Shown in pieces: positions 3,999 to 19,908 of a stretch of DNA of 22,733 nt; position 1 is the stretch's first letter; the number at the start of each line of letters is the position of its first letter. The notes beneath the pieces were generated by a model that saw only the letters and a program-made list of their open reading frames with translations, was not told where the DNA came from and made no database searches. The DNA is from a virus. The stretch is from the IMG/VR virus record IMGVR_UViG_3300006789_000188, positions 1 to 22,733 of that record. One strand, given 5' to 3'. Made by a program: the position numbers and the translations under genes.

Positions 3999-4496
3999 TT
4001 ATTTATTTGACCATAAAGGCTGTTCACAGCTCTTCATTGTTGTATTACCATCTCCTAATCCATCTCCATCTCTATCTGCATACCATACTGACTGGCCATC
4101 GCCACCACATACACCACAATCATCTCTATCGTTTGTTGCGCAGTAATCATCATTATCATCAGAATTTCTCACCCACATACCAATAACATCATCTGAAGGA
4201 AAAATATATGTTCCTTTTTCTTCATAGTCGGTAGTATATGTGGCCCCATTCCAAGTAAAGACACCTCCAGCTCCAAACTCTGCTCTTGCTTTAGCAAATG
4301 CTTGTTCGAATGTAACATTATCAGTTTTGGCCGCCAAATCTATCTCTTTTTGCTCCATGTTTTGTATCATACGATTAACAGCCTCATCTATTCTATGCTG
4401 TTCTTCTGCATTATTGTTTATTTTACTGCTGTTCATTGTTAGCCAAATTGTTGTCATGGCTAATATTGCCCATACTGCTTTTACTTGTGTTTTCAT
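3999..4496 (-). CDS. exported or membrane-anchored protein with calcium-binding-like tail
   Basis: This 165-residue protein has three parts. Residues 7-21 are a hydrophobic helix (AVWAILAMTTIWLT) after one Lys pair, either a signal peptide or an anchor. Residues 63-94 carry AFAKARAEFGAGGVFTWNG and YTTD, a motif I have seen in small phage and bacterial proteins of unknown role. The tail has DRDDCGVCGGDG (residues 123-134) and YADRDGDGLGD (139-149), with Cys119, 127, 130 and 157; the Asp/Gly string resembles thrombospondin type 3 or MopE-like calcium-binding repeats. The SD is AAGGAG. It neighbours another membrane-anchored protein, so the pair may act at the cell envelope. Exact function unknown. 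Confidence 0.75.
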   Translation of the reverse strand: MKTQVKAVWAILAMTTIWLTMNSSKINNNAEEQHRIDEAVNRMIQNMEQKEIDLAAKTDNVTFEQAFAKARAEFGAGGVFTWNGATYTTDYEEKGTYIFPSDDVIGMWVRNSDDNDDYCATNDRDDCGVCGGDGQSVWYADRDGDGLGDGNTTMKSCEQPLWSNK

Positions 4497-6712: not shown

Positions 6713-7029
6713 ATTATTTCTCCTTTTTTGTTGTTTGACATAATTATTTTTGTTGCTTGAACTCCAATATCGTGTATTTCTTTTCTTTGTTCTTCTTCTG
6801 TCATATTAAACGTTATATTTCTTGCTAATCTTGTTCTGTTTCCATCACTTAAACCTGCTAACCACATAATGAAATTTGTTTGCATTTGCTTAAATTTATC
6901 TACTAAATAATCTCCTCCGTTTGCAACATCAAAAGCGGTTCCTGTTACTCCATAACTATCTTCTGCAAATTGTTTTAAATTACTATCTACCGCCCACCTT
7001 ACTAATTTATCTAAATCGTTCTTATTCAT
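6709..7029 (-). CDS. hypothetical protein
   Basis: A 106-residue, mainly helical protein (MNKNDLDKLVRWAVDSNLKQ...). The end, Lys-Lys-Gly-Glu-Ile-Ile, is encoded by the SD of the next gene. The start overlaps the previous stop (ATGA) and uses SD GAGGAGGTG. No family is recognised. Confidence 0.7.
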   Translation of the reverse strand: MNKNDLDKLVRWAVDSNLKQFAEDSYGVTGTAFDVANGGDYLVDKFKQMQTNFIMWLAGLSDGNRTRLARNITFNMTEEEQRKEIHDIGVQATKIIMSNNKKGEII

Positions 7030-7355
7030 TTTTTCACCTCCTCTTTTTCTGTCTTTGTAATTTCGCTTATATGCTCGTGCAATCCATCAACTATGGCTTG
7101 GTATATATTTGCTTGAATTTGGTCGTGTGCGTTGCCTTCTGGATTTATTTCGGGGATTTCTGTCATTAACCAACTATTATTTCCTGCATATCTTCCTATA
7201 TCATAATAATAAATCGGTACATTACTATCTGCTATTTGGTGAATTGCGTCTTCAAGGTCGTAATGTCCTTTTTGTATTTCTTTCCAATCGTAGTTTAAAT
7301 CATCACAAGCCTCTGATATTAAATCTGCTAATTCGTATCTATTTTTCTTGTTCAT
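7026..7355 (-). CDS. conserved small phage protein
   Basis: A 109-residue acidic protein. The order of motifs, a short helix, then ADSNVPIYYYDI, a Trp/Leu segment and QANIYQAIVDGLHEHI, matches a family of small phage proteins that I recognise by pattern but that has no known function. SD AAAGGACAATAAG precedes the start. Confidence 0.72.
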   Translation of the reverse strand: MNKKNRYELADLISEACDDLNYDWKEIQKGHYDLEDAIHQIADSNVPIYYYDIGRYAGNNSWLMTEIPEINPEGNAHDQIQANIYQAIVDGLHEHISEITKTEKEEVKK

Positions 7356-9716: not shown

Positions 9717-10484
9717 ATGGATGTAAAAGTAATAAAAGGCGAAGAAAATTATTTATACGATGATGAGGTTGAATTCAAGGCTTTCAATCCTGGAGTTCCC
9801 ATTGTTGGCAACTGGAGAATTGGAACCATTGGTGATTGGGTATATACCGATGATGACTATGTTCTTCAGATAATCAAGCGTAGTGGGTTAAAGCATCCAG
9901 GCTATAAATCTCCAAGGAATGTTGTATTGACTGTTTGCGGTTCTTATATCGTTGAGCAGAAGACTCATCAAATAATGGGAGATAGAGGTGTTGCGCAAAA
10001 CATTTTTTCATTTTCTGGAAACTATGATGCAATTTATGAGAGGGCCAAAGATAGAAAGTTAAACAACCGTGAGTTCTTATTTGCCAGATACGTTGCAGCT
10101 GGGGAAGATACCATTTCAGCTTATAAAAAAGCATACCCAAAGGCTAAGAATGAGGATTATATTAAGCAGAAAACAAATATTTTACTAAATAAAGAGGAAG
10201 TTAGAACTATGGTTAAAGAAGAGGTAAAAAAAGTATTAGCCGATGAGGGTGTTTCTCCTGAGTGGATTATAGCAAAGTTCAAAGATATTGCAGATTTATC
10301 CGATAGAGACACCGATAAGCTTAATTCCTTAAAAGCACTGGCTACTATGTCTGGATTATTTGATACAGAGAAGAAACAAGAGCAATTAACAGTATTTCAA
10401 GGATTCACACAAGAGCAAATGGAGGCTTTAAGTGGAAAAACACCTGCAAAGGTCATCGCTCACAAAGAAAAAGACGAAGATTAA
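9717..10484 (+). CDS. terS: terminase small subunit with N-terminal beta domain
   Basis: This 255-residue protein probably recognises the phage packaging site and hands it to the large subunit. Residues about 115-185 (NNREFLFARYVAAGEDTISAYKKAYP..., a helix-turn-helix-like segment with Tyr/Ala spacing) and the helical end match small terminases. Residues 1-105 are an extra, strand-rich domain with GNWRIGTIGDWVYTDDDYVL, similar to beta-barrel segments placed before some marine-phage small terminases (recollection). It is the first gene after the noncoding gap and 2.4 kb before the large subunit gene. The ATG lacks an SD (TATTATATTATTTC precedes it), unlike most genes here. Confidence 0.78.
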   Translation: MDVKVIKGEENYLYDDEVEFKAFNPGVPIVGNWRIGTIGDWVYTDDDYVLQIIKRSGLKHPGYKSPRNVVLTVCGSYIVEQKTHQIMGDRGVAQNIFSFSGNYDAIYERAKDRKLNNREFLFARYVAAGEDTISAYKKAYPKAKNEDYIKQKTNILLNKEEVRTMVKEEVKKVLADEGVSPEWIIAKFKDIADLSDRDTDKLNSLKALATMSGLFDTEKKQEQLTVFQGFTQEQMEALSGKTPAKVIAHKEKDED

Positions 10485-10677
10485 AGACCCTTGTCCTATT
10501 TGCGAGAAAGAATTGTATCATAATCAGTATTATTCCAAACGTGTTGGCTTATTTGACACAAACACTACAGACCATGACGTAATTGGCTGGATGTGTCCTA
10601 AATGTAATTCAGAATTTGATAATAACGATAATATTATGTATATTTACGGGGAAAATTCAATAGGTGGAAAGACATAA
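10432..10677 (+). CDS. zinc-ribbon protein overlapping terminase small subunit
   Basis: This 81-residue protein has Cys21-x2-Cys24 (CPICEK) and Cys55-x2-Cys58 (CPKCNS) around a Tyr/Gly-rich core, a classic zinc ribbon. The GTG start at 10432 has GGAGG six bases upstream, inside the terminase gene, giving a 53-base overlap. No ATG lies before the first CxxC pair, so the GTG is the only start that keeps the domain whole. It may support packaging or late regulation; only position suggests this. Confidence 0.75.
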   Translation: MEKHLQRSSLTKKKTKIKDPCPICEKELYHNQYYSKRVGLFDTNTTDHDVIGWMCPKCNSEFDNNDNIMYIYGENSIGGKT

Positions 10678-10697
10678 ACAATAAAAATGGAGTTATG

Positions 10698-11510
10698 ATG
10701 GCAGATTATCCAAGCAATGATGCAAGAAATAGAATGCAAAAAAATGAATTTAGTTTAAATTTATCAGATAGCAGTTCTATATACGAAAAAAATCAAGCTA
10801 AAAGAAAAAAAGCTAAAGAAAAGACTGATGCAAGAAAACAAGAATTAAAAGAAAAGAATGCTCCTAAAAAAGCTATTAGAGCAGAACGTAGAGCTGCAAG
10901 GAAAGCTGCAAGAAAAGCTGCAAGAAAAGATATTTTATCTGCATTTTCAAAGAAAAGAAAAGCTAAAAGAGCTGCAAAAGATGTAGCAAAATCAAAAATG
11001 AAAGCATTAAAAGATAAATCTTATATTGCAGATGACCTATCTAAAATTCGCCCTAGTAGTAAACCAGTTTCTGCTAAAAAAGGTAAATCTGATTCTAACT
11101 TAGGATTAGCTAAAAAAGGGAAATATGGCACAGCATCATCTTCTAAAAAAACTTCTGCTAAAAAAACTGTTGTTCCAATTAATAAAAAAGAACAAGCTAA
11201 AATAGATGCTAAGGCTCCAGCTAAGAAAAAAATGATTCCAATTAATAAAGTAGAACAAGCTAAGTTAGATAAGAAAAAGTCTTCAAAGCCTGTTGTTACA
11301 AAAAAAGAGAAATCTAAAATTGCTAGAAAAACAGCTAGTACTGGCAAGAGTGTATCAGAAATAGCTGCAGAATTAAAACCTAAAGGTAAAGCTAAAATAA
11401 ATATAGATGAATTAAGAAAAGCAAGTGCTGAACTTAAAAAGAAGAAAAAAGCTCCTAAAAATAAAATAACAGGATTCACTATGGGTGGAAAAACAATTTC
11501 ACTCAAATGA
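10698..11510 (+). CDS. histone-H1-like Lys/Ala-rich basic protein
   Basis: This 270-residue protein is dominated by Lys, Ala, Ser and Arg, with stretches such as AARKAARKAARK and two copies of PINKxEQAKxD (near residues 160 and 184). It resembles the C-terminal tails of histone H1 and the H1-like proteins of some bacteria. It should bind DNA without sequence preference; in a phage it might be packed with the genome, help condense it, or coat host DNA. It ends with a different, conserved-looking segment (NKITGFTMGGKTISLK). ATG 10698 is preferred over the ATG directly before it because GGAG then has a five-base spacer. Low complexity makes homology hard to judge. Confidence 0.72.
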   Translation: MADYPSNDARNRMQKNEFSLNLSDSSSIYEKNQAKRKKAKEKTDARKQELKEKNAPKKAIRAERRAARKAARKAARKDILSAFSKKRKAKRAAKDVAKSKMKALKDKSYIADDLSKIRPSSKPVSAKKGKSDSNLGLAKKGKYGTASSSKKTSAKKTVVPINKKEQAKIDAKAPAKKKMIPINKVEQAKLDKKKSSKPVVTKKEKSKIARKTASTGKSVSEIAAELKPKGKAKINIDELRKASAELKKKKKAPKNKITGFTMGGKTISLK

Positions 11511-11653
11511 AAATAGTCTACAAATATCAAGCCACAGATGAAGATGTTCAAGGTACCTCTCTTATCCCATGTTGTGTTAATCATACTCTATACCCTTCTT
11601 TGTTTGTGGCTGATAACTCCAATTTTGCTATGTGGGAGTCAGATGGCGAATAG
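11507..11653 (+). CDS. small coupled protein
   Basis: A 48-residue frame (MKIVYKYQATDEDVQGTSLI...) starts inside the stop of the H1-like gene (ATGA), which favours translation by coupling. It ends FAMWESDGE, and the codons for these last residues carry the GGGAG SD and the ATG of the lysozyme gene, overlapping it by 11 bases. The sequence has Pro, Cys-Cys, His and aromatic residues spread like a folded domain. No family is recognised. Confidence 0.58.
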   Translation: MKIVYKYQATDEDVQGTSLIPCCVNHTLYPSLFVADNSNFAMWESDGE

Positions 11654-12242
11654 TAATGATATGAATAGTATTTTAGATTCATTGCTTTTTACACAACAGA
11701 ATAATTACCAATATAAAGATTCTATGCAAAAAACAATGAATTTTGAAGGTTATGAAGAAAAGCCATATCTTGATTCATCTGGCTTTCCAACTATAGGTAT
11801 TGGAAACAAGTTAGAATCTGTATCTTATAAAAAAGGACAAATGCCAGAAAAATATTCTAATATGGAAGTTTCAAAAGAGAAAGCAATTAATAATTATATT
11901 AATAATTACTTAGAAATCGAAGGTATAGTAAAGAAAAAGTATGGAAAAGGTTACGATAAGTTACCAGAAGATGCTAGAGGAGTTTTAAATGACTTGGCAT
12001 TTAATTTAGGAGGATTTAAACTTTTTGATGAATTTCCTGGTTTTATTGAAGATTTTAAAAAAGGTCAATATGGGGAAGCTGCTAAAGAATTAAAATTTAC
12101 CAACCCAGACGAAGGTGATATGAATTTTAGTAAATGGTGGAAGCAAATAGGTGCTTTAAATACTGAAAATGAAAATTTAAAAAGAAGTGATAATAGAGGA
12201 ACTTCTGCTTATGATATATTATTAAATTTAAAAGGAAAATAA
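11643..12242 (+). CDS. GH24 phage lysozyme (endolysin or virion lysozyme)
   Basis: This 199-residue protein should cut the glycan strands of peptidoglycan. The catalytic triad of T4-type (GH24) lysozymes is visible with exact spacing: Glu35-x8-Asp44-x5-Thr50 (NFEGYEEKPYLDSSGFPTIGIG region), and VLNDLAFNLGG matches the later conserved Asn-x-Gly block. The start at 11643 has GGGAG four bases upstream. A longer reading from 11538 would add 35 residues with a strong hydrophobic stretch, but has no SD and overlaps the preceding gene. Its place between the terminase genes, far from any clear holin, is unusual and leaves open a virion-borne role. Confidence 0.88.
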   Translation: MANSNDMNSILDSLLFTQQNNYQYKDSMQKTMNFEGYEEKPYLDSSGFPTIGIGNKLESVSYKKGQMPEKYSNMEVSKEKAINNYINNYLEIEGIVKKKYGKGYDKLPEDARGVLNDLAFNLGGFKLFDEFPGFIEDFKKGQYGEAAKELKFTNPDEGDMNFSKWWKQIGALNTENENLKRSDNRGTSAYDILLNLKGK

Positions 12243-12317: not shown

Positions 12318-12848
12318 ATGTCATGGACAAATAAAGAATCAAAAATAGATTATACTGGAGCAAGTGCTCAAAAATATACAGATGCATATACAAATAGACC
12401 TGAAGATGCAGGAAGTTTAAAAGGTATTCAAGGTTTATTAGATAAAATAGGTATGGTACCAGGTATTGGAGAACCAGCTGATTTATTAAATGCTTTATTA
12501 TATGGAATGCAAGGAGAAGGAAAACAAGCTGGATTATCAGCATTATCAATGCTACCATTTCTGGGCGGTATAATAAAGCCTATGAAAAAAGCCAAGAAAT
12601 ATTATGGATTAGAAGATATTGGGCATATAGACCCTAAACTTCAAGAACAAAAGTTATTTAAAGATAAGGCTAGAAAAAAATATTTTGCAGAAAAGTCAGC
12701 AGAGAATAAAAGACTTGAAGATGATTATTTTGAAAAAGAACTTAATTTTCAAGATATTGAAACAGATGATATTAAATCTGCTAATTTTGCAGAATCTCAA
12801 AGCTTTTTAGATTCTCTATTTGATTCATTTAAAGGAAAGGAATTTTAA
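12318..12848 (+). CDS. protein with glycine-rich hydrophobic hairpin
   Basis: This 176-residue protein has SD AAGGAG six bases before its ATG. Residues 38-87 (around MVPGIGEPADLLNALLYGMQ and ALSMLPFLGGIIKP) form a Gly/Pro-punctuated hydrophobic stretch of two helices, which resembles the hydrophobic hairpin segment placed before toxin domains in polymorphic toxins and also found in some virion proteins. The rest (residues 90-176) is a charged helical region. It could be a membrane-active virion protein, a holin-like protein or a lysis partner of the lysozyme next door. No enzymatic domain is visible. Confidence 0.66.
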   Translation: MSWTNKESKIDYTGASAQKYTDAYTNRPEDAGSLKGIQGLLDKIGMVPGIGEPADLLNALLYGMQGEGKQAGLSALSMLPFLGGIIKPMKKAKKYYGLEDIGHIDPKLQEQKLFKDKARKKYFAEKSAENKRLEDDYFEKELNFQDIETDDIKSANFAESQSFLDSLFDSFKGKEF

Positions 12849-12892
12849 TGAGTTCGGCAGCAAAAAGATATAAAAAAGCTAGAAATGGCTAA
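12848..12892 (+). CDS. 14-residue leader-like ORF before terminase (candidate)
   Basis: A 14-codon basic frame (MSSAAKRYKKARNG) starts as TAATG on the previous stop, with AAGGA at a good distance. It ends at 12892, eight bases inside the large terminase gene, whose own ATG has no SD. Ribosomes ending here could restart on the terminase. The peptide itself may have no function. Confidence 0.38.
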   Translation: MSSAAKRYKKARNG

Positions 12893-14453
12893 TTTAAATC
12901 TTAATGGTAATGTTTCCCAAAATGAAAAGGTTCTTGAGATGGCATATAAAGACCTTATCGTATTTGGTAAACTATTTTCACCTCAAGACTTTTTGGCTTC
13001 AGCGACTCCTGAATTCCATAATGTAGTTGGTAAAAAACTATTAGATAGAAAAAATCAACAATTGGCTCTTGTATTGCCTCGTGACCACGCAAAGTCAACT
13101 TTAGCAGCAACTGCTGTATTACATCGTTTTCTATTTGCGAATAAAGAAAGCCCAGAATTCATCGCTTGGGTTGGCGAGGCTCAAGACCAGGCTATTGATA
13201 ACCTCAACTGGATTTCCAATCATATATACTCTAATCCTGCAATACATTATTATTTCGGTGACCTTCAAGGCGATAAATGGACTAAAAACGAAATAACATT
13301 AACAAATAATTGTAGGATGATTGCTAAAGGAGCAGCCCAAAGACTGCGTGGTAAAAAGCAATTATCTACAAGATACACTGGAATTATACTTGATGACTTT
13401 GAATCTGAGTTAAATACTAAAACTCCTGAAGCAAGACAACAAATTAAGAATTGGGTAACAGCTGCTGTATATCCAGCGATTGATTTTGATAAGGGTGGGT
13501 TCTTATGGTGTAATGGTACTATTGTACATTATGACTCATTTTTAAATGGATTAACTAAAAATCATAAAGAAGCAATGAATAATGGTGCTGAGTATTCTTG
13601 GGACTTAATAACCTATAAAGCAATACTTGATAATGGTGAACCATTATGGCCCTCACGTTGGCCTCTTAAAAAATTAGCAGAAAGAAAGCAGTTTTATGTA
13701 GATTCTGGTACACCGTCTAAATTCTATCAGGAATATATGAATCAAGCTAAATCTCCTGAAGACCAAATATTTAGTGAAAGCGATATAATAGATAATTTAT
13801 ATTCTGGTAGTGTGAAATTTGATGAAGAAAGAAATTCATGGTATATTAAGCTAGAAGATGGGAAAATAGAATATGTTAATATTTACATGGGTGTTGACCC
13901 TGCCTCTACTCTTAGTACTCGTAACGACTACAGTGTTATTATGGTTATTGGTGTTACTTCTGAATATGATTATTACATTATTGAGTATTGGAGACAAAGA
14001 GTATTACCTATGGACTGTGCAGATGAAATATTTAAAATCTCTGAACGATATAGACCAATTAAAAGAATAAACATTGAAACAATATCATATCAGGAAATGT
14101 TAAGAGATTATATACATAAAAGAAGTAAAAAGGAAGGAAAGTTTCTTCCTGGAATAGAACAAGGAATTAAAGGTTATGGTAATCAGAAGAAGAAAGACAG
14201 ACTCTTTGAAGGACTACAACCTATGTTTAAAGCGGGAGCTGTTCATTTAAAAAAGGATATGCATGAGTTTATTGGAGAACTATTAGATTTTCCAAAAGGT
14301 AGTCATGATGATACTATTGATGCATTTTGGTTATCAACACAATTTGCTAAGGGCAGTAAATCAGCAAGTAAGATTAAACGAGTTAAGAATAATAAAGAAG
14401 AGTGGGAAAAGCCAAAAAAGACCTATAATTGGATTACGGGGGCAAGGGGTTGA
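12885..14453 (+). CDS. terL: terminase large subunit (ATPase-nuclease)
   Basis: This 522-residue motor protein drives DNA into the prohead and cuts it. The ATPase half has a Walker-A-like PRDHAKST (residues 65-72; the usual Gly-Lys is replaced by Ala-Lys, as in some phage terminases) and a Walker B IILDDFE (167-173). The nuclease half has Asp338 in MGVDPAS, Glu398 in INIETIS, and Asp475/Asp476/Asp479 in HDDTIDAF, the RNase-H-like acidic set. Length is normal for the family. It starts inside a tiny upstream frame and has no SD. Portal, scaffold and capsid genes follow in order. Confidence 0.93.
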   Translation: MANLNLNGNVSQNEKVLEMAYKDLIVFGKLFSPQDFLASATPEFHNVVGKKLLDRKNQQLALVLPRDHAKSTLAATAVLHRFLFANKESPEFIAWVGEAQDQAIDNLNWISNHIYSNPAIHYYFGDLQGDKWTKNEITLTNNCRMIAKGAAQRLRGKKQLSTRYTGIILDDFESELNTKTPEARQQIKNWVTAAVYPAIDFDKGGFLWCNGTIVHYDSFLNGLTKNHKEAMNNGAEYSWDLITYKAILDNGEPLWPSRWPLKKLAERKQFYVDSGTPSKFYQEYMNQAKSPEDQIFSESDIIDNLYSGSVKFDEERNSWYIKLEDGKIEYVNIYMGVDPASTLSTRNDYSVIMVIGVTSEYDYYIIEYWRQRVLPMDCADEIFKISERYRPIKRINIETISYQEMLRDYIHKRSKKEGKFLPGIEQGIKGYGNQKKKDRLFEGLQPMFKAGAVHLKKDMHEFIGELLDFPKGSHDDTIDAFWLSTQFAKGSKSASKIKRVKNNKEEWEKPKKTYNWITGARG

Positions 14454-14486: not shown

Positions 14487-16508
14487 ATGATAGAATCCGA
14501 TAAAAAAGCAATTTACACCAAAGAATTATACAATAGGTGGCATGAGGCTCGTAAAGAGTGGGAAGACCATGCTCGTGAAGATATTGATTTTTATTTAGGA
14601 AATCACTTCAGTGAAACAGAGGCAGATGAACTTGCATCCAGAAATCAATCAAATATACCATTAGATAGAATATACTCTGCTATTGAGCAGTTTAAAGCTA
14701 TTATTACATCTAAGCCTCCTAAGTTTTCAGCTATGCCAAGAGAGGATTCTGATAGTGACCTTGCTAGTGTATGGAAAACTATACTTGAATATATTTGGAA
14801 TATATCAGATGGTAATGAAGTATTTAAGCAAACAATACATGATTACTCAGTAACTGGTCTTGGATATTTTTATGCATATGTAGATAGAGAAGCTGATTAT
14901 GGTAGAGGTGAAGTTAAATTTACTTATGTAGACCCATTTAGAGTTGTTATTGACCCTAATGCTAGAAGTAGATATTTTGACGATGCTACGGGCATGATGT
15001 TATCTACAATATTTACAAAATTTCAATTATTAGATTTATACCCTCAATTAGCTGAAGAGCAAGAGGATGGTAAAATGATGATTGATTTAATAGAAAATTT
15101 TAGAGAAGATGAAACATGGCCTTCTCCTATGAATAAAAGAACTGTTGGTACGTTCACTCCTGATTATGTAAAAGATAAGGATACTGGTGAAGGTTCTGAA
15201 AAGTATCAATTAATTGAACATTTTTCTAAAGTTAAAGTTCCATACTATAGGATGCTTGATATGCAAACTGGAGAAGAAAGAATCCTAGATGTAAAGAATA
15301 TGGAAAAGTTTTTAGCTGACCCTAAAGTTACTGATGCAGTAGAAAAAAAACTTATAGATTTTGTAGAAGTACAGCAAACAAGAATTAAACTTATATGTAC
15401 ATTAGGGCAAACAGTATTATATGAATATATATTAAATACGGATAAATATCCTATTGTACCTGTTCCTAATATTTGGACTAATACTCCATATCCAATGAGT
15501 GATGTACGAAAGAATAAAGATTTCCAAAGATTTTTAAATAAAACAATGTCATTGATAACATCTCATGCACAAGCATCATCTGGATTAAAATTACTTATAC
15601 CACAAGGAAGTGTTGATGATATTGAAGAATTAGAAAAAAACTGGGCTAATCCCAATGCAACAATTGAATACGACCCATCTTTTGGTGAACCACATTTCCC
15701 ATCTCCGCAACCTTTATCTAATTCAGTAATGGAGTTGCCAAAGTTAATTGAAAAGTATATTGATTTAAATATGGGTATATTTGAAATGATGCAAGGAAAT
15801 TCTGCAGTTGCTCCAAATACATCTTCAGCTACCATGATGTTAGAAGATTTTGGTCAAAGACGTAGTAAATCTAAATTGAGAGACATTGAAGGTTCATTAA
15901 GACGACTTGGTCAAGTTATATATAATTTAGCAAAAGAACATTATGATTATAAAAAAGTATTTAGAGTAGCTCAACCAAATAATGATATGAGTGAATATAT
16001 GGTTAATTTTTATAATGATAAATCTCAAGCAATTAGTGAAATGCAAAACGATTTAACAATAGGCCAATATGATATTAATATCATTGGTAATTCTACTATG
16101 CCATCAAATAGATGGGGTGAATGGTCAATATATATGGAAGCTTATCAGGCTGGTTTAATAGACCAAACTGAAGCATTAATGAAGACAGATATATTTGATA
16201 AAGAGGGAGTGTTGCAAAGAATGGATATTGTTGCTAAATTACAAGGTCAATTACAGCAGTCACAAGAACAAATTAAAAATTTACAAGGTGATTTACAAAC
16301 AGCTCACAGAGAGTCAATCTCATCAAGAAAGGCAACTGAAGTTGAGAAATTTAAAACTGAGTTAAAATCACAAGAATCACAATCCAAGTCAGCTAATAAG
16401 TTAGCTATTGGAAAACTAGAAAGTGCAGTTAAACTCGAAGCAGAGAAGTTACGTTTACGTAGCCAAGCTCAAGATAAGCAAGAGAAATTGCAAAGAAAAG
16501 GAGAGTAA
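14487..16508 (+). CDS. portal protein (P22-like)
   Basis: This 673-residue protein should form the ring through which DNA enters the head. Its length, the N-terminal helical part (WHEARKEWEDHAREDIDFYL), the block SNIPLDRIYSAIEQFKAIIT, VDPFRVVIDPNAR, and the long helical C-terminus fit large portals of the P22 type. Residues about 575-673 are a long coiled coil rich in Gln, Glu and Lys, a possible barrel. Position directly after the large terminase and before scaffold and capsid supports the call. It lacks a visible SD: 14454-14486 is A/T only, with the imperfect palindrome ATGTTATATATTACAT (14468-14483). Confidence 0.87.
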   Translation: MIESDKKAIYTKELYNRWHEARKEWEDHAREDIDFYLGNHFSETEADELASRNQSNIPLDRIYSAIEQFKAIITSKPPKFSAMPREDSDSDLASVWKTILEYIWNISDGNEVFKQTIHDYSVTGLGYFYAYVDREADYGRGEVKFTYVDPFRVVIDPNARSRYFDDATGMMLSTIFTKFQLLDLYPQLAEEQEDGKMMIDLIENFREDETWPSPMNKRTVGTFTPDYVKDKDTGEGSEKYQLIEHFSKVKVPYYRMLDMQTGEERILDVKNMEKFLADPKVTDAVEKKLIDFVEVQQTRIKLICTLGQTVLYEYILNTDKYPIVPVPNIWTNTPYPMSDVRKNKDFQRFLNKTMSLITSHAQASSGLKLLIPQGSVDDIEELEKNWANPNATIEYDPSFGEPHFPSPQPLSNSVMELPKLIEKYIDLNMGIFEMMQGNSAVAPNTSSATMMLEDFGQRRSKSKLRDIEGSLRRLGQVIYNLAKEHYDYKKVFRVAQPNNDMSEYMVNFYNDKSQAISEMQNDLTIGQYDINIIGNSTMPSNRWGEWSIYMEAYQAGLIDQTEALMKTDIFDKEGVLQRMDIVAKLQGQLQQSQEQIKNLQGDLQTAHRESISSRKATEVEKFKTELKSQESQSKSANKLAIGKLESAVKLEAEKLRLRSQAQDKQEKLQRKGE

Positions 16509-16509
16509 A

Positions 16510-17235
16510 ATGGATAACGCATTAGAAAATAACAATCTTCAAGAAGGTCAAGTTAATGATAATGTAGGGCAAGATGAAGCAACTCAGCAGCAAGAGTCTG
16601 GGAGTGATTGGGAGTCACAAGCTAAGTATTTCCAATCAGAGAAAGATAAACTTCAAGCTGAAAACCAAAAGTTAAAACAATATGAGCAAGTTGGACAAAT
16701 GTTGGAATCAAGACCTGATATAGTAAATACCATTAGTGGTATGGTTCAGGGTGGTCAACCAGCACCAGAAGCACCTATTGAATTATCTAAGGATGAGTTT
16801 GACCCTTGGGAAGCCTATAATGACCCATCGTCTAAGTCGTATAAATATCGACAACAAGAGTTACAAGACACTATTAATAAAGCAGTATCAAACCAAGTTG
16901 GTGATGTAAAGAAAGAAGTTGGTATGTCTAAACTTCAAACTGAACTTGCTAACAAAGGATTAAATACAGAGCAAATTACCTCTTTTATGGATTTTGCTAG
17001 TAAGAATCCTGCAGAATATGGTATTGACGGTGCTATTAATATGTGGCAAGCAGTAACTCAAAAGCCGACTGAAGGTGAAAGTAATACGAATAATCCACTT
17101 GATGCAATTCGTCAAAATCAAGCAGTTCCTCAGCAAGCAGGTATTTTAAACGGTGAGCAACCTGTAAAGAAAGATGACAAAGATTCAATGTGGGATTCAA
17201 TTATGAAAGCTGGAAGTCGAACAAGTGTATTGTAA
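16510..17235 (+). CDS. capsid scaffold protein
   Basis: This 241-residue protein probably guides assembly of the capsid and is then lost. The N-terminal 60 residues are acidic and Gln-rich, followed by a coiled coil (about 35-70), a helical middle with Met/Gln, a Pro/Asn-rich linker, and a basic, helical end (DSMWDSIMKAGSRTSVL) of the kind that contacts the coat. Its place between portal and major capsid genes is the usual one. The start at 16510 is chosen for SD GGAGAG; a longer reading from 16423 would sit in the portal gene. Confidence 0.8.
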   Translation: MDNALENNNLQEGQVNDNVGQDEATQQQESGSDWESQAKYFQSEKDKLQAENQKLKQYEQVGQMLESRPDIVNTISGMVQGGQPAPEAPIELSKDEFDPWEAYNDPSSKSYKYRQQELQDTINKAVSNQVGDVKKEVGMSKLQTELANKGLNTEQITSFMDFASKNPAEYGIDGAINMWQAVTQKPTEGESNTNNPLDAIRQNQAVPQQAGILNGEQPVKKDDKDSMWDSIMKAGSRTSVL

Positions 17236-17256: not shown

Positions 17257-18600
17257 ATGGCAACATATAGCGCAGGCAGTTTATCGGCCAATGGTGCGAG
17301 AACTCCTGGTGTATCGGCTACAGACTTTCACTCAAGACGATTATTTGATTTTAGTGATAGGATTGCTGAACTTGCACCAGAAGAATCCCCATTTTTCGTA
17401 TATCTGTCAAAAGTAGGGAAAGTACCTACTTCCGATAGTCAATTTAGATTTTTGGAAGATAGAACTAAAATATCAATTGCTGATAGAGCATTTACTGCTC
17501 AAGCTGCATTTACAGCAGCTGCAGTAGGAAGTACTGCAACAGCAACATTTGATACAACTGATTCAACACCAGTATCAGTAGATTGGTTAATACCAGGAAT
17601 GGTAATATCAGTAGGTACCGTTGATACAGGTACAGCTCAACCAGAATGGTGTACAGTAAGAGTTGAATCTGTTGTAGATTCAGGTGCTTATAGTACAGCT
17701 ACAGTTAGAACAATTGCAAAAGCTTCGGCTGCAGCTTTAACTGTTCCAGATAATGCAAAATGTACTGTTATAGGTACTGCATTTGAAGAAGGAACTGGAG
17801 CCCCAGATGTATGGTCACAAAAGCTTGAGAATGATTATGGATATACTCAAATCTTCAAAACAGCTTGTGAAATGTCTAATACAGCTAGAGCAACTGTTTA
17901 TCGTGGTTATGCTGACGAATGGCAGAGAATATGGAATCTTAAATTAAGAGAACATAAAGTTGATATTGAAAGAGCAATGCTTTTTGGCATGAGAGGTTCA
18001 ACTAATAGTATACAATATACTGATGGTATCGTTGGACATATTATTGCAAACTCTCAAGCAGAACTTGCAGATGAAGCTCAAGTATCATATAATACTGATA
18101 AAGGTTATTTAAAAACAATCACAGCAGCAAATTGGTCTTATGACTCATTATTAAGTGACTTTGAAGTAATCTTTGACCCTGCAAGGGGTGGTAGTTCAGG
18201 TAAACTTGCCTTAGCAAGTCTTCCTGTGGTATCTCACTTTAATAAGTTGGGTGGTTTTGTTAGTAGTTCTATTGATGGAACTCCTGGTAATTATAACTTT
18301 GAAAAAAGCCAAGGTGCTTTTGGACACAAGGTTATGAAAATAGAAACAATCCATGGTGATTTGTCTATGGTTAAAGAGCCTTTATTTAGAGGGAACTCTG
18401 CTGGCTTTTTAGCAATGGTTGATTTAGACCATGTATCTTATAGACCTCTTGTAGGTAATGGAGTAAACAGAGATACATCAATCACTACAAATGTGCAACA
18501 AGCGGATGAAGATTTAAGAAAAGATATGATATTGACCGAAGCTGGTCTTGAAGTATCTCTTCCTGAAACTCATGCCTTGATTCACTTACAAGGAGTGTAA
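17257..18600 (+). CDS. major capsid protein, HK97-fold, SU10/DUF5309-like
   Basis: This 447-residue protein should form the shell. The opening DFSDRIAELAPEESPFFVYLSKVGK, the strand DSQFRFLEDRTK, a beta-rich domain at about residues 80-175, the block YTQIFKTACEMSNTARA, the helix EWQRIWNLKLREHKVDIERA and the end LTEAGLEVSLPETHALI are the pattern I associate with DUF5309/SU10-type capsid proteins. SD AAGGAG precedes the ATG, unlike the terminase and portal genes, as expected for the most abundant product. Confidence 0.87.
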   Translation: MATYSAGSLSANGARTPGVSATDFHSRRLFDFSDRIAELAPEESPFFVYLSKVGKVPTSDSQFRFLEDRTKISIADRAFTAQAAFTAAAVGSTATATFDTTDSTPVSVDWLIPGMVISVGTVDTGTAQPEWCTVRVESVVDSGAYSTATVRTIAKASAAALTVPDNAKCTVIGTAFEEGTGAPDVWSQKLENDYGYTQIFKTACEMSNTARATVYRGYADEWQRIWNLKLREHKVDIERAMLFGMRGSTNSIQYTDGIVGHIIANSQAELADEAQVSYNTDKGYLKTITAANWSYDSLLSDFEVIFDPARGGSSGKLALASLPVVSHFNKLGGFVSSSIDGTPGNYNFEKSQGAFGHKVMKIETIHGDLSMVKEPLFRGNSAGFLAMVDLDHVSYRPLVGNGVNRDTSITTNVQQADEDLRKDMILTEAGLEVSLPETHALIHLQGV

Positions 18601-19689: not shown

Positions 19690-19908
19690 ATGAAAAGGAC
19701 TAGAACATATTACTGTAAAGAATGCAAAGGATGTAAAACATTTACACCTGAAGAAAGATATGTATGTGATTGTGGACATCTATTTGGAACTACAGCAAAT
19801 ATCTCAGATGGTATTAATATGAGAAGAAATAAATGGAGTGGACAAACAAAAGTGGAATTTAGTCAAACAACAATTGATGATGATATAGCAGATAGGAATA
19901 GAAGATAA
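19690..19908 (+). CDS. small zinc-ribbon protein
   Basis: This 72-residue protein has Cys9, Cys12, Cys15 and Cys26-x-Cys28 (YYCKECKGC, VCDCGH), plus His30, a compact zinc site. The rest is basic and polar. Its SD is AGGAATAG, and its stop overlaps the next start as TAATG, so it is probably made with the connector-like protein. Function unknown. Confidence 0.72.
   Translation: MKRTRTYYCKECKGCKTFTPEERYVCDCGHLFGTTANISDGINMRRNKWSGQTKVEFSQTTIDDDIADRNRR

Follow-up and report, generated by a model that had tools for sequence, protein, structure and literature searches.

Genomic organization around the terminase genes

The DNA analysed here, a stretch of 22,733 bases to which we refer as the window, belongs to a virus record of an uncultivated marine phage, and a head module occupies its right half (Table 1). 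The module extends from the small (TerS) and large (TerL) terminase subunits to a P22-like portal, a probable scaffolding protein and a SU10-type major capsid protein, and is completed by further head genes. The nearest isolated phages are distant, with identities, best among the matches listed, of 27% for TerL, 24-30% for the capsid protein and 22-24% for the portal. A search for a host or prophage through a TerL pattern in genome contigs gave 49 pattern matches and no relative.

A Lys/Ala-rich protein, here called the H1-like protein, is encoded between TerS and TerL. It shares this interval with a Zn-ribbon-like ORF of 81 aa, a phage lysozyme and two ORFs of 48 and 176 aa. In the clade map the 81-aa ORF keeps its place beside TerS. 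Short Ser/Tyr-rich ORFs resembling the 48-aa ORF are found in the same interval of many relatives, and they perhaps encode a coupling or regulatory peptide. The lysozyme, whose N-terminus (MANSNDMNSILDSLLF) contains the motif LDSLL, also gave a match (E 3e-4) to phrog_2083, described as an internal virion lysozyme motif. The similarity to the T7-type internal virion lysozyme is weak and concerns its lysozyme motif, and the idea of an enzyme inside the head would be comparable, whereas here the lysozyme is a separate small protein with the LDSLL motif at its N-terminus.

Table 1. Features of the terminase interval and head module of the window
Feature	Positions	Strand	Remarks
TerS (terminase small subunit)	9717-10484	+	phrog_51, E 1.8e-5; Pfam Terminase_2, E 0.0039, below its cut-off
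81-aa Zn-ribbon-like ORF	10432-10677	+	from the ORF list; overlaps TerS; weak zinc-ribbon/endonuclease VII matches
Lys/Ala-rich H1-like protein, 270 aa	10698-11510	+	alternative ATG at 10695
DARNR, context MADYPSNDARNRMQK	10719-10733	+	residues 8-12 of the H1-like protein; instance of the clade-wide terminal DARxR
Predicted single long helix	10770-11042	+	residues 25-115; pLDDT of the block mostly 84-96 (AlphaFold2)
Repeat unit 1, VPINKKEQAKID	11172-11207	+	residues 159-170
Repeat unit 2, IPINKVEQAKLD	11235-11270	+	residues 180-191
C-terminus GFTMGGKTISLK	11472-11507	+	predicted beta-hairpin with GGK turn
48-aa ORF	11507-11653	+	its ATG overlaps the stop of the H1-like gene
Phage lysozyme	11640-12242	+	PF00959, E 2.3e-8; phrog_7
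176-aa ORF, function not assigned	12318-12848	+	C-terminus SFLDSLFDSFKGKEF, LDSLL-like
TerL (terminase large subunit)	12885-14453	+	phrog_38, E 2e-84; PF17289
P22-like portal	14487-16508	+	PF16510, E 7e-50
Probable scaffolding protein	16510-17235	+	from its position between portal and capsid genes and its composition; no family match of note
SU10-type major capsid protein	17257-18600	+	PF17236, E 2.6e-30

The Lys/Ala-rich protein

The ORF may start at either of two ATG codons, giving 271 or 270 residues, and the second ATG has the better spacing to an upstream GGAG. The earlier note had described a protein rich in Lys and Ala, with repeats inside it and lying between terminase genes, and this description was borne out: the 29.7 kDa product contains 25.9% Lys, 14.1% Ala and 5.6% Arg, has a calculated pI of 10.5 and a net charge of about +58 at pH 7, and includes two near-identical 12-residue units. 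By composition, the first 24 residues are its sole non-basic part. An AlphaFold2 model made from a two-sequence input (mean pLDDT 73, pTM 0.26) predicts a short helix at residues 7-22, a single long helix (37% Lys plus Arg, 21% Ala), a Lys-rich tail of little order in which some short helices are placed, and a hairpin at the C-terminus.

Three contigs only carry this protein, namely the window, L001 (100% identical) and L002, the one non-identical relative (86% identity), and the same contigs were returned when relatives were sought again by alignment. Between the window and L002 the NG86 estimates over 259 codons were 0.086 for dN and 0.242 for dS (dN/dS about 0.36), and since these values accompany 86% identity the ORF is more than a chance reading frame; it is real and under purifying selection. 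The gene is absent from L005, a close relative (TerL 96%), in which the slot is filled by a non-homologous protein bearing another terminal motif, AHxxID. No relative was found among isolated phages (INPHARED).

As to its family, the protein gave no match in Pfam (E 0.1), NCBIfam or PHROGs and none among PDB sequences, and the Hc1 (PF07432) and Linker_histone (PF00538) models found nothing in the window up to E 10. Membership in the histone H1 family, which had been suggested from the sequence, was therefore rejected, and "histone H1-like" is a fair term for composition and not for family. With chlamydial Hc1 and the eukaryotic linker histones the protein has in common its Lys/Ala-rich composition and an expected binding to DNA; it differs from them in matching neither model and in having no globular domain in the low-depth AlphaFold2 model. 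A large aquatic phage lineage has been reported to encode H1-like (Hc1, PF07432) proteins, and the authors of that report raise genome compaction at the time of packaging (PMC12619734).

The C-terminus had been singled out as a specially conserved end, perhaps the only part conserved in relatives. It is no more conserved than the remainder of the protein, ending as SFNMGGKTIKFK in L002. The further idea that an end of this protein is a packaging tag survives in altered form: an end does recur on unrelated proteins, but it is the N-terminal one, with its DARxR motif. The C-terminal sequence is present as it had been written, and GGKT, which is like its GGK turn, recurs in 7 clusters of clade proteins against 0.7 expected; this recurrence is weaker than that of DARxR but leaves some room for a C-terminal tag as well. 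The interest of the H1-like protein is thus in its N-terminal tag rather than in its C-terminus.

Recurrence of the DARxR tag

The clade sample consisted of the window and relatives fetched through TerL (L001 to L082), 83 loci in all. Across them DARxR was found in 57 distinct ORFs. The loci overlap in source and some contigs appear twice (e.g. L002 and L004); from the ORF and cluster counts identical proteins only were dropped. All except one of these ORFs (56/57) lie on the coding strand of their locus, and in 54 the motif is at most 20 residues from an end, against 25 expected, with 27 at the N-terminus and 27 at the C-terminus. The codons of the motif differ synonymously among carriers (GAT/GAC, GCA/GCT, AGA/AGG), which indicates that the peptide is what is kept.

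The motif was noticed by eye, and an unguided ranking made afterwards placed it on top. The ranking covered gapped four-residue motifs within 25 residues of either end in 1316 proteins, grouped in 446 clusters. DAR.R was present in 10 of these clusters, the value from 10 shuffles being 0.1, and one cluster of the ranking is a merger of MSLY proteins, DUF6321 proteins and others. Counted by cluster, it was found in 8 of 42 within the TerS-TerL interval and in 2 of 214 elsewhere; three of the eight, which start with MPQGKGTYG, have 13 N-terminal residues in common and may be one family. In L021, L032 and L059, tagged ORFs were also observed farther downstream, after the capsid gene. Of 58 loci that span TerS to TerL, 26 have a tagged ORF inside the interval and 32 have none, so the tag is not obligatory there. 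Six held-out contigs, a sample too small to weigh, yielded one protein with a C-terminal DAR.R and one antisense match (both in L232), one AHxxID protein (L236), and nothing in the other four. The six were new in a TerL search with 424 matches, of which 80 were fetched.

We propose a class of DARxR-tagged small proteins of this clade, to which the H1-like protein belongs, with its tag at residues 8-12, within the predicted short N-terminal helix, and its gene between TerS and TerL. Our literature searches, made on subjects such as DUF6321 rather than with the motif, met no report of the tag.

Carriers of the tag and its apparent restriction to the clade

The unrelated small proteins with a terminal DARxR include MEVKDARNRKEV, MKVNDARLRTQSYREGGK, GFPKKDARKRSKKS, YPITDARNRSKK and SRVNDARNRSKKTY, to be compared with MADYPSNDARNRMQK in the window, and their bodies show no similarity to one another. 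Two carriers belong to recognised families, MSLY (phrog_25774) and DUF6321 (PF19846). Both have in common with the H1-like protein the tag and, within the clade, a location in the packaging module, whereas their bodies are not homologous to it. Literature searches on DUF6321, and on DUF2589 in phages, found nothing.

In unrelated marine phages MSLY proteins are widespread, encoded beside the genes for terminase, portal and scaffold. The phrog_25774 model has 42 positions and matches residues 1-40, and the tag is at residues 40-44. In a scan of 80 IMG/VR loci, of which 71 matched the MSLY pattern and 9 were dropped, a single protein was tagged and it proved to be from a clade contig; the 70 proteins from outside the clade are all untagged and have either a plain Lys tail or some other extension at the end. 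Similarly, the DUF6321 domain starts after the tag, and its homologues in HTVC119P, MEP301 and Venkman start without it. From these sequences DARxR looks like a property of the clade, added to families that are without it elsewhere.

Other marine phage loci, 464,813 bases in all, yielded only two DAR.R ORFs, one of them antisense. The isolates CRP-810 and Mel-JY34, which have related capsid proteins, contain five in 54,127 bases. Three of the five run opposite to the strand of the annotated structural genes and two are on the same strand, one with the motif internal in an arginine run (L239) and one with it close to the C-terminus of an ORF of 58 aa (L240). These ORFs count mildly against a strict restriction to the clade.

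Some further observations concern the tag and sequences resembling it. In L002 (7496-7933) there is a natural fusion in which an MSLY body and a DUF6321 protein are joined exactly at DARxR, and relatives have instead two adjacent genes, each with the tag. A 165-aa protein on the minus strand of the window (3999-4496), for which no Pfam or PHROG match was obtained, has FEQAFAKARAEFGAGGVFTWNGATYTT followed by an acidic tail of DGDGLGD type; the former resembles by eye the C-terminus FRKAYAKAKKGSTFTWDNRKYKK of a tagged protein in L006 (3344-3868). A 72-aa Zn-ribbon-like protein of the window (19690-19908), also present in L015, L035, L064 and L077, has a strongly conserved C-terminus, DxDIADRNxR, which looks like a permuted DARxR tag.

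Other terminal motifs

The motif AHxxID is frequent in interval proteins without DARxR and was found near an end in 9 of 42 interval clusters and in none of 214 elsewhere; for LDSLL the counts were 4 of 42 and 0 of 214. As these patterns, like those resembling the T4 capsid-targeting sequence (CTS), were written after the sequences had been inspected, the p-values for interval enrichment of AHxxID and LDSLL are optimistic. The LDSLL-like C-terminus of the 176-aa ORF is a doubtful instance, the LD not being kept in a homologue of the same cluster.

MSLY tails in other marine phages also recur. Some are TDKYKKK-like and others follow ARGCGxVMxxRRKxTKxY/S (L145, L149, L157, L164, L203 and L130, L197); judged by sequence, both types are perhaps the tags of other clades. 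In L149 the gene after MSLY also begins with a TNKYKKK stretch, and with this one pair only, TDKYKKK was set aside as a tag common to neighbouring genes in other phages.

Comparison with T4 internal proteins and cyanophages

The internal proteins of phage T4 are described as basic and as having little in common except a targeting peptide, of which 10 residues are enough (PMC3012670, PMC9026906). The same reports state that, of their positively charged residues, only lysines are seen touching DNA phosphates. The targeting peptides are reported to be cleaved (PMC5694885), and gp21 trims T4 propeptides during head maturation. IPI to IPIII with their CTS thus resemble the proteins studied here in being small and basic, with unrelated bodies and a short terminal peptide in common. 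The H1-like protein is itself basic and shares such a peptide with unrelated proteins of its phage group, as the interval counts of DARxR indicate. The peptides differ, MKTYQEF or MKTFKEF in T4 and, here, DARxR, which may be at the N or the C end; the T4 peptide is not present at the H1-like N-terminus (MADYPSNDARNRMQK vs MKTYQEFIAEA of IPIII and MKTFKEFTS of IPI in the T4 record). Moreover, the clade phage differs from T4 in its P22-like portal, its SU10-type capsid protein and the lack of a recognised head protease in the window, and Lys accounts for 26% of the H1-like protein against 13% in IPI and in the examined part of IPIII.

Cyanomyoviruses have DUF6321 genes one or two genes after TerS, and some of the encoded proteins have starts resembling those of T4 internal proteins, MKTFNQFQAEC (S-RS29) and MKTFEQFTEG (single-cell virus AG-345-E15). 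In eight proteins examined, a start of T4 type was N-terminal in three, internal in three and absent in two. In cyanophage S-CREM2 two genes separate TerS from TerL, those of gp136 and gp137. The former (17% Lys, 11% Ala, net charge +23) starts with MQTFSMFFSED, like a T4 internal protein, and the latter has a C-terminal DUF6321 (E 3.5e-10) and no T4-type start. Both were detected in virions, gp136 by 8 unique peptides (24.1% coverage) and gp137 by 4 (4.1%), as given in Table 3 of PMC10665884. Found in virions, rich in Lys and Ala and CTS-like at its start, gp136 is by gene position a counterpart of the H1-like protein.

Possible role of the H1-like protein

The recurrence of DARxR beside packaging genes suggests that this phage group loads such proteins into the head by means of the tag. 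We are inclined to propose, at close to an even chance, that the H1-like protein is a non-conserved internal-head (cargo) protein recruited by DARxR, with a basic body that contacts the packaged DNA. The non-basic N-terminal segment carrying the tag would dock the protein on a head-assembly component of the clade, candidates being the scaffold, the portal or the inner capsid, before DNA is packaged; the long Ala/Lys/Arg helix and the Lys-rich tail would afterwards rest on the DNA inside the head, and the protein may enter the host along with it. It would be one of a set of swappable small proteins of the TerS-TerL interval, many with one of a few short terminal motifs, and the most DNA-oriented member of that set, and DARxR would do in the clade what the CTS does in T4, through a different peptide. 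In favour of the proposal are the recurrence of the tag and its rarity outside the clade, the synonymous variation of its codons, the S-CREM2 counterparts in virions, the T4 parallel and, in L005, the non-homologous AHxxID protein in the slot. Against it are the 32 intervals without a tagged ORF, the occurrence of the H1-like protein in three contigs only, the low coverage and missing T4-type start of S-CREM2 gp137, and the varied placement of T4-type starts in the eight proteins examined. The tag could equally bind terminase, the membrane or a host partner, and the basic body could instead have RNA as its target or work inside the cell alone.

Such an intracellular role is the substance of one alternative, in which a nucleoid-type protein not present in virions would act as Chlamydia Hc1 does, by coating or compacting the DNA of the host or of the replicating phage, and DARxR would dock it on a cytoplasmic partner, possibly terminase. 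We consider this rather unlikely: composition and charge would suit it, as would the Hc1-type proteins and the compaction idea reported for the large aquatic phage lineage (PMC12619734), but neither an Hc1 nor a linker-histone match was obtained, the tag is also on small proteins that are not H1-like and whose genes lie in the packaging and structural modules, and DUF6321, a family sharing the tag, has a relative detected in virions. The least credible of the readings weighed here is that the gene is a low-complexity ORF without a specific role; its presence in three contigs only and its absence from L005 are what such an ORF would show, but the dN/dS ratio, the good start site, the overlap of its stop with the start of the following ORF and the presence of the tag all argue against it.

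The tag itself may be read in other ways. A proteolytic signal, at which a phage or host protease trims termini at head maturation, would account for its terminal position and would have a parallel in the cleaved targeting peptides of T4 (PMC5694885). The earlier note had likewise allowed for a cleavage tag, and we found no support for one: in the window, which is part of a genome, no protease family was recognised with Pfam and PHROGs among 20 proteins, recognised head genes included and the truncated last ORF excluded. The tag is also equally frequent at N and C ends, sometimes two or three residues before the stop, where cleavage would have little effect, and we regard the proteolytic reading as improbable. 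Slightly less probable still is that DARxR marks a recurring DNA junction at which small genes are shuffled, the peptide being without function. The MSLY-DUF6321 fusion at the tag and the adjacent genes with tags at facing ends in L006, L008 and L011 would agree with a junction, but the residues are kept despite synonymous codon variation, frame and terminal position are kept in non-homologous proteins, and the motif is far rarer in the other marine phage loci.

If the cargo reading is extended from the H1-like protein to its neighbours, the clade might have a head-loading code of its own, in which unrelated terminal tags send swappable, non-homologous proteins into the procapsid, the T4 CTS being one instance of a general and convergent practice. 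This broader proposal is speculative and we would put it forward as possible rather than probable. In such a code DARxR would mark mostly basic proteins, and enzymes and other small proteins would have AHxxID and perhaps LDSLL; the cargo cassette would lie largely between TerS and TerL, in a phage with a P22-like portal and a SU10-type capsid; and other marine phage groups would attach other tails, TDKYKKK or RGCGxV on MSLY, to the same bodies.

Should DARxR act as a loading signal, this five-residue motif would predict which hypothetical proteins of an uncultivated marine phage group travel in the virion, and would offer a lead on DUF6321 and MSLY, families without known function. It could also serve as a small portable tag for putting proteins into phage heads, and the TerS-TerL interval would be worth searching for proteins with an action on the host during entry.

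Other genes of the window

Outside the head module, the minus strand encodes at 7026-7355 a 109-aa protein resembling Ocr of T7, which counters restriction by mimicking DNA; the matches were to phrog_2568 (E 6.6e-7) and, short of the cut-off, to PF08684 (E 0.0017). Recombination genes are located on the same strand at 1018-2698, with a Sak-type single-strand annealing protein (PF06378, E 1e-42) and, near it, a PD-(D/E)XK/Cas4-like nuclease (PF12705, E 2e-12).
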